In this document: positions 59,450 to 62,700 of the stretch, piece after piece
How the letters are laid out: every line of letters begins with the position of its first letter
Numbering within the stretch: position 1 is the first letter of the stretch
NCBI RefSeq assembly: GCF_030166655.1
Contig: NZ_CP126446.1
Span: forward strand, 310,001-374,000
Source: Pontibacillus chungwhensis
GTDB taxonomy: Bacteria; Bacillota; Bacilli; Bacillales; BH030062
DNA length: 64,000 nucleotides
Direction: 5' to 3'
Translations under genes and position numbers: made by a program
The notes under the pieces: model-generated
Told to the model about the DNA's origin: nothing
Seen by the model: the letters and a program-made list of their open reading frames with translations, nothing else
The model's database searches: none

Positions 59450-59466
59450 CTAAAGGAGTGTCACAC

Positions 59467-59775
59467 ATGCAAATTGATAAATTAAGAGGCAAGGAATTAG
59501 ACCAATTATTTAAAGCGATTCTAACAATGGAATCAGTAGAAGAATGCTATCAACTATTTGATGACCTAGCGACAATGAACGAGGTACAATCCCTTGCTCA
59601 ACGTCTAGAAGTAGCTCGCATGCTTCGTGAAGGATTCACGTATCACAAAATCGAAAACGACACAGGCGCATCTACTGCAACCATCTCCCGCGTCAAACGC
59701 AGCCTAAACTATGGCAACGACGCCTACGCAATGGCTCTCGATCGCGTTCAAGAATCTGAAAAAGAAAACGAATAA
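59467..59775 (+). CDS. yerC: YerC/YecD family TrpR-related regulator
   Basis: The 102-residue protein has the TrpR-like helical fold: LRGKELDQLFKAILTMESVEECYQLFDDL, then QSLAQRLEVARMLREG and the helix-turn-helix YHKIENDTGASTATISRVKR. It is a predicted DNA-binding repressor whose ligand is unknown. ATG 59467 follows AAAGGAG by eight bases. It is followed by a strong terminator and then the large periodic array. Confidence 0.9.
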   Translation: MQIDKLRGKELDQLFKAILTMESVEECYQLFDDLATMNEVQSLAQRLEVARMLREGFTYHKIENDTGASTATISRVKRSLNYGNDAYAMALDRVQESEKENE

Positions 59776-59782
59776 TGAGTAG

Positions 59783-59812
59783 GAAGACTACCCTTTGTGG
59801 GTAGTCTTTTTT
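59783..59812 (+). terminator. Terminator after yerC
   Basis: AAGACTACCC / GGGTAGTCTT with a short loop and TTTTTTT. Confidence 0.92.
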
Positions 59813-59845
59813 TATGTAGAGATGGGAGAATTTTCGCGGGGGCTA

Positions 59846-60860
59846 GAGTCGGTTTGCATTCCGCTAGAGCCTCTCACGGGGAGCTTGAGCCATGCTTGGC
59901 AAACTTGAGCCGCTCCGCATTACGCGGGGGGTGGACTGGAGCCGGTTTTTCTTGAACTAGAGCCAGAAATGGAAAACAAGAGTCACAAATCAAGAGGAAG
60001 AGCCGGCTTTAGGATATATGAGCCGCTATTTCGGGCGCTTGAGCCAGAAAGAGAAAAAGTAGAGCCAGAACCACCTGAGTATGAGTCACTTATCTCTGAC
60101 TTGAGCCGTTGCCCCCGAACTTGAGTCGCCCCACATTACGCGGGGGAACTGGAGCCGGTTTTTCTTGAACTCGAGCCAGAAATGGAAAACAAGAGTCACA
60201 AATCGAGAGGAAGAGCCGGCTTTAGGATATATGAGCCGCTATTTCGGGCGCTTGAGCCAGAACGAGAAAAAGTAGAGCCAGAACCACTTTCGTATGAGTC
60301 GCTTATCTCTGACTTGAGCCACTGCCCCCGCACTTGAGTCGCCTCCGCACTGAGCGGGGGAACTGGAGCCAGTTTTTCTTGAACTCGAGCCAGAAATGGA
60401 AAACAAGAGTCACAAATCAAGAGGAAGAGCCGCCTTTAGAAAATATGAGCCGCTATATCGGTCGCTTGAGCCAGAAAGAGAAAAAGTAGAGCCAAAACCA
60501 CCTGAGTATGAGTCACTTATCTCTGACTTGAGCCACTGCCCCCGAACTTGAGCCGCTCCGCACTAAGCGGGGGAACTGGAGCCGTTTTATCTTGAACTCG
60601 AGCCAGAAATGGAAAACAAGAGTCACAAATCAAGAGGAAGAGCCGCCTTTAGAAAATATGAGCCGCTACATCGGGCGCTTGAGCCAGAAATAGAAAAAGT
60701 AGAGCCAGAATCACCCGCGTATGAGTCGCTTATCTCTGACTTGAGCCGTTGCCCCCGAACTTGAGCCGCTCCCCTCAAACTTGAGCCGCTCCCCCCGAAC
60801 TTGAGCTACTCCCCCCGAACTTGAGCCGCTCCACCCAAACTCGAGCTATTCCCCCCCAAA
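59846..60860. repeat. Large 20/21-bp phased GAGCC array with four 213-bp higher-order repeats
   Basis: About 48 copies of GAGCC or GAGTC (mostly TTGAGCC) are spaced 20 or 21 bases apart. After four leading units (59846, 59867, 59887, 59907) come four copies of a 213-214-bp block starting near 59935, 60148, 60362 and 60575. Each block contains ten motifs with steps 21,20,20,20,21,21,21,20,20,29. The blocks are roughly 90 percent alike by eye. The end (60749-60850) is five 20-bp units like CCCCCGAACTTGAGCCGCT. TGA in TTGAGCC recurs in all frames on the plus strand, so it is non-coding. Confidence 0.9.
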
Positions 60861-60893: not shown

Positions 60894-60909
60894 TGTTTCA
60901 CGTGTAACT
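60894..60909. promoter_or_regulatory. parS-like sequence
   Basis: TGTTTCACGTGTAACT matches the Bacillus parS consensus TGTTNCACGTGAAACA at 14 of 16 positions, with the CACGTG centre intact. It lies 35 bases after the periodic array. Two mismatches are in the right half, so ParB binding is uncertain. Confidence 0.35.
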
Positions 60910-61000
60910 TTTTTAACAATCAAATAATTAGAAAACAAAAGAGATCTAATACAAATAGACAAAAATAGTTAACAAATGATTGATTTCGATTCTAAACACA

Positions 61001-61043
61001 AAAGAACCCCGCATATCGACGTGGTTCGTCGGCATGCGGGGTT
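61001..61043 (-). terminator. Terminator after glyQS
   Basis: On the minus strand AACCCCGCAT and ATGCGGGGTT pair around a 19-base loop and are followed by CTTTT. Confidence 0.82.
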
Positions 61044-61054
61044 TTGAATGCATT

Positions 61055-62443
61055 TTAGTACGTTAATTGATCTTCAAGGAAGCTGCGAAGGTCGCTGATG
61101 TTCAGGCGAGTCTGTTCCATTGTGTCACGGTTACGTACAGTAACTTGACCGTCTTCTTTGGAATCGAAGTCGTACGTGATACAGAATGGTGTACCGATCT
61201 CGTCGTGACGGCGGTAACGTTTACCGATTGAACCAGCGTCGTCGTAGTCGACCATGAAGTGCTTAGAAAGGTCAGCGAATACTTCTTTCGCTTCGTCGCC
61301 TAGTTTCTTAGAAAGTGGGAACACGGCTGCTTTGTATGGAGCCACTGCTGGGTGGAACTTCATAACAGTACGGGAAGAGCCGTCTTCTAATTCTTCTTCT
61401 TCGTAAGCATCAGCAAGGAAGGCAAGAGCTAAGCGGTCTGCACCAAGGGCAGGCTCGATCACATATGGAATGTAACGCTCGTTTGTTTCCTGGTCGATGT
61501 ATTTGAAGTCTTCGCCGGAGTGCTCAGCGTGCTGAGTTAGGTCGAAGTCTGTACGGGAAGCAATGCCCCATAATTCGCCCCAGCCCATTGGGAACTGGTA
61601 CTCGATGTCTGTTGTGGCGTTACTGTAGTGAGATAACTCATCTTCACCATGTTCGCGCAGGCGAAGGTTTTCGCCTTCAATGCCAAGAGACTTCAACCAG
61701 TTGTGACAGAAGTTCTTCCAGTAATCGTACCATTCTAACTCTTCACCAGGCTTACAGAAGAATTCCATTTCCATTTGTTCGAATTCACGCGTACGGAAAA
61801 TGAAGTTACCTGGAGTGATTTCGTTACGGAAGCTCTTACCGATTTGGCCAATACCGAATGGAAGTTTCTTACGCATAGAACGCTGAACGTTTTTGAAGTT
61901 CACGAAGATTCCTTGCGCTGTTTCAGGGCGAAGGTAGATGTCATCCGTTGCGCCTTCTGTAACACCTTGTTGCGTTTGGAACATAAGGTTGAACTGACGG
62001 ATTCCTGTGAAGTTCTTCTCGCCACATGTTGGACAAGCGATGTCATGCTCGTCGATTAGCTTTTCCATTTCTTCAAATGGAAGGCCATCTACGACCATTT
62101 CTTTTCCTTCAGCTTCTAGTTTGTTCTCGATCAGTTTGTCTGCGCGGTGACGAGACTTACATTCTTTACAGTCGATCATTGGGTCGTTGAAGTTACCTAA
62201 GTGACCAGATGCTTCCCACGTTTTTGGGTTCATTAGGATCGCTGCATCAAGACCTACGTTAAGCGGGTTCTCTTGGATGAACTTTTGCCACCAGGCACGC
62301 TTTAAGTTGTTCTTTAATTCAACGCCAAGTGGACCGTAGTCCCATGTGTTCGCAAGGCCGCCGTAGATTTCAGAACCTTGGAAGATAAAGCCGCGATGCT
62401 TTGAGTGTGATACTAATTGATCCATTGTAGTTTTCTTAGACAT
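61055..62443 (-). CDS. glyQS: Glycyl-tRNA synthetase (homodimeric type)
   Basis: The 462-residue class II synthetase charges tRNA-Gly. Motif 1 region [25 protein letters not shown], motif 2 [26 protein letters not shown] and motif 3 [14 protein letters not shown] are present. [11 protein letters not shown] and CPTCG form a zinc-like insert. The length equals that of Staphylococcus GlyQS (463). ATG 62443 has AAAGGAGG eight bases upstream; the longer frame runs through the T-box terminator. It is regulated by a glycine T-box. Confidence 0.96.
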
Positions 62444-62488
62444 TTGTATGTCCTCCTTTATCACTTCAAGATGTCGTCCCATAACAAA

Positions 62489-62700
62489 TAAAAAAATCTC
62501 GTCACTGGGACAATGCCCAGGGACGAGATTAAACCCGCGGTTCCACCCTGATTGATGACTTGCTCGGTTAGCAAGCATCCACTTTATGCGTGCATACTCA
62601 GGAATGCCGTTTCTTTAAACCGTTCTCTGAGCTCGCACCGTCCTCAGATCGCTAGGGGAAGGGGGTTTAAATACTATGTTTCCGTCATCATATGATATAA
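62489..62700 (-). promoter_or_regulatory. T-box leader of glyQS (glycine specifier)
   Basis: On the minus strand the T-box AGGGTGGAACCGCGGG (62549-62534) precedes a terminator with stem AATCTCGTCCCTGGG / CCCAGTGACGAGATT and TTTTTTT (62530-62489). Stem I upstream contains GAAACGGCATTCC, where GGC is the likely glycine specifier codon. Uncharged tRNA-Gly would favour antitermination. Confidence 0.93.

Follow-up and report, generated by a model that had tools for sequence, protein, structure and literature searches.

Helix-phased arrays of a conserved GAGYC motif beyond gene ends in Pontibacillus, with related arrays in other Bacillales

Introduction

Between a yerC-like and a glyQS-like gene of Pontibacillus chungwhensis lies about a kilobase of DNA in which one short motif recurs every 20-21 bp, always in the same direction. 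What kind of element is this, is it confined to this junction, and what might its regular spacing serve? The locus was flagged in a stretch of 64,000 nucleotides (contig NZ_CP126446.1, positions 310,001 to 374,000 of the forward strand; hereafter the window) by a first-pass annotation made from the sequence alone, which regarded it as a non-coding array of phased motifs. The genome of the window is designated G000 and seven other genomes of the genus G001-G007; the gene names yerC and glyQS are those of the first-pass annotation.

Results

The window array and its neighbors

The array is a real feature of the window, occupying 59846..60859 on the forward strand with 48 sites of the motif ACTTGAGYCRNT. 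A strict scan finds 46 GAGYC sites, which form a single chain from 59846 and all point in one direction, and direct reading adds two GAGCT variants at 60803 and 60843, giving the count of about 48 proposed at first pass. All steps are 20-21 bp except one each of 32, 29, 30, 29, and 40 bp, the last of which has a GAGCT site in between. The 29-32 bp steps occur once per block of about 213 bp, at the block start, and the array is ordered as a short lead-in, four tandem blocks (59902..60772), and a tail of 20-bp units (60739..60846). This layout, also as first described, is matched by Tandem Repeats Finder, which reports 213 bp x 4.1 at 59902-60772, 427 bp x 2.0 at 59902-60769, and 20 bp x 5.4 at 60739-60846. 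Autocorrelation likewise shows the expected peaks, with self-identities of 0.41 and 0.31 at lags 20 and 21, respectively (0.25 expected from composition).

On the left, the yerC-like gene (59467..59775, forward strand; ORF 59458-59775, ATG at 59467) has matches of 78-100% identity in 8/8 genomes of the genus. It is followed by a terminator-like hairpin and T run recognized by eye (59784..59813, forward strand; AAGACTACCC-TTTGT-GGGTAGTCTT-T run), near which the sole entry of the terminator scan is an overlapping minus-strand site. The glyQS-like gene on the right is convergent (61055..62578, reverse strand; ORF of 507 aa, its listed start possibly too far upstream), and beyond its end lies a second hairpin of this kind (61005..61044, reverse strand), seen by eye and absent from the terminator scan list.

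The array is adjoined at 60894..60909 (forward strand) by TGTTTCACGTGTAACT, a parS-like site that is possibly a chromosomal ParB site. A parS-like site also follows the orthologous array of G005 (L170 2786-2801); a looser parS pattern has a chance expectation of 0.19 per window. None of the other loci scanned (L177-L189, L252-L289) has such a site at two or fewer mismatches to the parS consensus, and a link of the arrays to ParB or Noc was rejected on this account.

Several mundane readings of the array were also set aside. Short ORFs (51-84 aa) do cross arrays; a coding repeat is unlikely and was rejected because the arrays mix units of 20 bp with units of 21 bp and because blocks elsewhere measure 203, 184, 205, and 233 bp, none of them divisible by 3, which bears out the non-coding assignment. 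An assembly artefact is unlikely because two other species carry arrays with different blocks at the yerC-glyQS junction. Searches of plasmid and phage collections returned no DNA similar to the array, and a plasmid or phage origin was rejected. Thirty viral stretches match three TTGAGCC; the one read closely (L240) is a different 20-bp repeat.

Arrays across the genome and genus

The pattern TTGAGCC-N12-15-TTGAGCC occurs 69 times in G000, and its reversed control 0 times. Together with one further array, these pairs define 15 intergenic arrays, the window array included. The same search of relatives, which had been suggested at first pass, found 128 pairs in G005, 116 in G006, a single one in G003 that lies within a coding-looking stretch, and none in the other four genomes. 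The first-pass annotation had treated a single locus; its array stands, but it is not unique, being one of 15 in its genome, with more in the genus and in other genera.

Some relatives carry other units. G002 and G003 have tandem arrays in which CCCGAGC-type units recur every 21 bp almost unchanged, with a unit-to-unit identity of 80-93%. The yerC-glyQS junction itself holds an array of rc-GAGC units in G001 and about three weak units in G004; in G002 a short, GC-rich array lies past a gene that comes after yerC, and in G007 a repeat at yerC-glyQS forms the end of the contig. Long GAGC arrays lie elsewhere in the genomes of G004 and G007. Arrays of G002, G003, G005, and G006 are those among the matches listed; seven of nine G003 regions were used (L278 and L282 gave no chain and were left out), and a match at G005:C4:211986 was not counted as an array.

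Arrays are inherited at fixed gene junctions

Comparison of the neighboring genes shows that 12 of the 15 G000 arrays have a counterpart at the same junction and in the same orientation in one or both of the sister species G005 and G006, and one further junction is common to G005 and G006. In 13/13 junction groups, the arrays point the same way relative to the genes. Matches that rest on one flank are L178/L257, L179/L255, L261, and L254 (contig ends), and L171 of G006, which has the junction seen in the window, is cut by a contig end. The arrays are thus inherited at fixed junctions with fixed orientation.

Among the 36 arrays of G000, G005, and G006, 13 are at convergent junctions, 18 at tandem junctions with the motif antisense, 3 at tandem junctions with the motif sense, and none at divergent ones (2 have no assigned context). 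Over 48 arrays, the corresponding numbers are 17, 20, 8, and 1 (in G003), with 2 unassigned. Counted by group, 0/18 junctions are divergent vs. 3/19 intergenic gaps of the window (p = 0.045, with a small baseline), and the motif is antisense in 10/12 tandem groups (p = 0.039), indicating a modest shortage of divergent junctions and a modest excess of antisense placement. No element boundary was seen, because almost no 12-mers recur between the flanks of one G000 array and those of another: there are ten, six of which are array units and four a single palindromic pair.

The motif changes less than the spacers

From 261, 144, and 167 distinct GAGYC-anchored units of three genomes, we obtained the consensus A-CTTGAGYCRNT-N8/9, in which GAGYC is fixed by the anchoring but A, CTT, R, and T on either side are not. 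The 8-9 bases after the core are pyrimidine-rich and weakly constrained, no position from +8 to +13 exceeding 0.42 bits in any of the three genomes; inter-motif GC is 0.50 in 20-bp units and 0.39 in 21-bp units. Neighboring units share little beyond the motif (self-identity about 0.3-0.6), and arrays are built of higher-order blocks of 124-258 bp whose within-array identity shows tandem turnover.

The claim that the motif is kept while the spacers drift was upheld by two comparisons. Across three high-identity G005-G006 array pairs, with eight core positions taken as motif and the best alignment used per pair, mismatches number 20/400 in the motif vs. 95/489 in the spacer, so that the motif changes about four times less. 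Between blocks within six arrays, the counts are 96/3046 and 498/3701; as overlapping alignments are not independent, p values are nominal. Mismatches are mostly A/G at +5 and mostly C/T at +3. A wider comparison also places the motif below the spacer, with the contrast inflated by distant copies that are partly aligned through the motif. In 5 of the 22 orthologous array pairs there is no alignable array sequence, and the motif is present in both members.

Spacing and its occurrence in the order

The 882 sites in 36 arrays are separated by 845 steps, of which 380 are 20 bp and 358 are 21 bp (738/845). Among 17 de-duplicated steps of 22-38 bp, 12 fall at 29-32 bp and none at 25-28 bp (binomial p = 5e-5). 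Both the dominant steps and this clustering of irregular ones agree with the helix phasing proposed at first pass; steps of 40-42 bp, which often skip a weak site, drive the wider Rayleigh values.

Across 199 genomes of the order, 32 contain 20 or more GAGC triplets with a spacing of 20-21 bp (remainder 0-18), and 2 contain as many at 25-26 bp (remainder 0-5); these counts include some coding chance matches, and 5 of 30 triplet loci (L325, L328, L336, L341, and L342) lie in frames of 174-792 aa. When 125,699 non-coding bases from 29 stretches were scanned without specifying a motif, the main period was 20-21 bp (and 40-41), with minority periods of 51-52 bp in two stretches and of 13 and 19-20 bp in one each. 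The 29 are partly from genomes with high GAGC counts and are not a random sample; four stretches chosen around known matches and one of 187 bp were excluded from them. Shuffled stretches gave no chains; under a looser setting the outcome was in line with this, and the background from shuffling stayed low. Repeat units vary widely by genome, e.g., TGAGTTCGGTTA, TTTTCGCCGGATTA, and GAGCGCTGATAA, and short TTGAGCC arrays at 21 bp are found in Lentibacillus, Fictibacillus, and Terrilactibacillus. This class of array therefore extends beyond the genus to other genera of the order, with motifs that vary by species. Outside the order, many of the matches listed lie in long open frames, and several are coding or 7-bp repeats.

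Two-turn spacing is not universal, as one genus has units every 25 bp and single genomes have arrays of 51-52 and 13 bp. The 25-bp case is a real exception: in G035 and G077, which belong to one genus, a palindromic TTGAGCCWGGCTCAA unit recurs every 25 bp in many places, combining the same half-site with a different geometry. The 51-52 bp period, about five helix turns, is intergenic at L294 9138-9595 and L298 9850-10171, and one of these arrays has inverted GAAGGACA/TGTCCTTC parts. In arrays from another genus or genera (L333, L334, and L335), a common end of about 40 bp, TGAGCGAACGTGTAATAA..AGAACACGTACCGTAAA, directly follows the last unit, whereas the Pontibacillus arrays have no common boundary.

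Similarity to IS21 transposon ends

The closest match in design came from one IS21 subgroup of the order, in which TTGAGCCAC(N4-5)TGCGGA forms three to four tandem sites before istA at 21-22 bp. GAGCC-bearing terminal repeats of such elements read TTGAGCCACT, in about four units, with sites like TTGAGCCACTTATGCGGAG. Ten of the 21 istA loci listed have at least three exact GAGYC sites and an eleventh has two exact and two degenerate ones; others from the same search carry other motifs (GTACCA, GATCCA). In published work on IS21, each end is described as having at least two direct repeats; every repeat contains a pair of conserved blocks separated by about one turn and is contacted by two HTH domains (PMC10122671).

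Array and subgroup ends have in common tandem direct GAGCC sites about two turns apart, and the first IS21 block, TTGAGCCRNT, is nearly identical to the array motif. They differ in number and spacing (about four units at 21-22 bp vs. 5 to 50-odd at 20-21 bp) and in the second conserved block of each IS21 repeat, which the single-block arrays do not have. IS21 also carries istA/istB between inverted ends, unlike the window array, whose sites run in one direction between yerC- and glyQS-like neighbors. We did not file the arrays as IS21 elements because the window array has no IS21 genes or inverted ends and the arrays have no common boundary; with respect to IS21, the check for a mobile element proposed at first pass came out negative for the window array.

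A search for IstA found no match at E <= 0.001 in G005 and G006. G000 has a broken istA remnant (G000:C1:3740572-3741248), two sub-threshold pieces with no GAGYC repeats adjoining. For IstB, nothing in G000, G005, or G006 scored above matches that we assigned as DnaC/DnaI/DnaA/RuvB-like, and a simple regular expression applied to 149 TTGAGCC loci in other genomes and viruses detected no IstB-type Walker motif within 4.5 kb of any of them. The IS21 elements located through the best istB matches in G003 and G008, and through one in G010, carry a different motif at their ends. At L013 1300-1800 of G010, the right end of one IS21 element precedes the left end of an element of a second IS21 type, which has four GAGCC sites and a truncated istA start.

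Discussion

With moderate confidence, we read the arrays as phased sites for a putative sequence-specific DNA-binding protein that form a structural or insulating element beyond gene ends. Such a protein, presumably encoded elsewhere in the genome, would recognize each ACTTGAGYCRNT site; as the sites are head-to-tail at two, sometimes three, helix turns, bound molecules would lie on one face of the DNA, where they could touch, perhaps cooperatively, and coat 0.1-1.4 kb of DNA immediately past the ends of genes. Blocks of about 6-12 units may be renewed, and their spacers turned over, by slippage or unequal exchange, while selection would remove units with a damaged motif. The most likely role would be an architectural or insulating segment that separates transcription units or organizes the chromosome. 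In favor of this reading are the low motif change and the same consensus in distinct units of three genomes, with further support from whole-turn spacing, the 32 vs. 2 of 199 genomes, the main period of the motif-blind scan, shared junctions, and a weak context bias. Slower-changing sites and whole-turn spacing are features that the arrays share with phased protein-binding arrays in general. Against this reading are the minisatellite-like arrays of G002 and G003 and the existence of other periods.

Those arrays, nearly perfect 21-bp repeats, together with the tandem turnover evident from higher-order blocks and within-array identity, could instead mean that all of the arrays are functionless slippage minisatellites in which a mutation or recombination process, not selection, preserves the motif. 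We consider this quite improbable, and assign it some weight because some arrays look like plain minisatellites. What argues against it is that the motif is kept in high-identity copies whose alignment is not in doubt and recurs at loci with unrelated spacers, and that irregular steps favor three helix turns; ten-base tracts are also too short for ordinary conversion between loci. The resemblance to IS21 suggests a different origin, namely IstA sites that lost their element and were tandemly multiplied, persisting as relics, decoys, or target-immunity zones for IstA-type transposases. The subgroup ends do carry the array consensus GAGCCRNT in tandem, and in short Lentibacillus arrays (L103, L144) a second block of the GTGA type, resembling that of IS21 repeats, is retained. 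This origin is nonetheless unlikely: motifs are conserved where G005 and G006 have no IstA match and G000 only the broken remnant, no IstB scored above the DnaC/DnaI/DnaA/RuvB-like matches in the same three genomes, the simple regular expression detected no IstB-type Walker motif around the TTGAGCC loci, the arrays have no second block and, in G000, no common boundary sequence, and junctions common to species are unlike recent insertions.

The arrays might also act as RNA. They follow gene ends, and since the motif is antisense in 18/21 tandem-junction arrays of three species, read-through transcripts would contain GGCTCAA repeats that could serve as sites for an RNA-binding protein or small RNA. 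A scan found no promoter-like site, however, and no Rfam match reached the gathering score, so that a known structured RNA family was rejected (one weak sub-threshold match, at 60908-61066, is outside the array). Folding z-scores for four 150-nt stretches were -2.3, 0.5, 0.0, and 1.4, only one stretch folding somewhat better than shuffles, and helix phase is not expected of RNA. We regard an RNA role as very improbable.

Interspersed intergenic motif arrays are already known in Firmicutes. STAR elements of Staphylococcus are described as interspersed intergenic direct repeats with a kept motif and locus-specific spacers, in tandem units of about 50 nt; loci expand and contract and differ by species, and their function is given as unknown (PMC3532100). 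Our arrays share the intergenic position, kept motif, and locus-specific spacers, and differ in their motif, 20-21 bp steps, and loci common to species; the 14-bp GC-rich STAR consensus T(G/A/T)TGTTG(G/T)GGCCC(C/A), whose copies are separated by 40 bp or more (PMC3532100), does not describe them. The first-pass statement that no described element of this design was known needs correction, as the IS21 subgroup ends have about four tandem copies of nearly the same site at 21-22 bp and STAR elements share the plan of a kept motif with locus-specific spacers. In the open-access literature, i.e., outside subscription journals and preprints, we found no description of helix-phased, species-variable arrays with a constrained motif at fixed junctions.

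Bacterial minisatellites and VNTRs resemble the arrays in their tandem units and block turnover, but here neighboring units have little in common except a motif conserved over the spacers. Eukaryotic satellite DNA offers another parallel, with short units in homogenized higher-order blocks and a protected protein box; the arrays repeat this organization in a bacterium, at kilobase size and many intergenic sites. The earlier view that the array is not a simple satellite is correct as to motif conservation, and is qualified by the satellite-like higher-order blocks, the turnover, and the nearly identical 21-bp repeats of G002 and G003.

A broader and more tentative proposal, possible though doubtful, is that many Bacillales have a satellite-like layer of chromosome organization: species-specific two-turn sites past the ends of genes, recognized by an architectural protein that co-evolves with them. 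Its specificity would drift like that of a centromere or transposon-end binder, and it may descend from the DNA-binding domain of an IS21-type transposase. Given how similar IS21 ends are, one may ask whether transposon-end sites gave rise to chromosome architecture or the reverse. Low motif change and whole-turn spacing at many fixed junctions are the signature expected of a DNA-coating protein, for which the window array itself is a ready bait, and species with different motifs but the same phase provide a natural series for studying the co-evolution of a DNA binder and its sites.

Two observations concern position on the chromosome. None of the 15 G000 arrays lies in the presumed terminus half (G000:C1 1.56-3.25 Mb), a gap with a largest-gap p of 0.0097, or 0.037 with clusters merged; exclusion from the terminus was rejected, as the test is post hoc and a G003 array at 2.20 Mb does not fit. 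With dnaA placed at C1:448, as inferred from a DnaA-like match, and the terminus assumed opposite, array orientation relative to replication is the same in 12/15 cases (p = 0.035).
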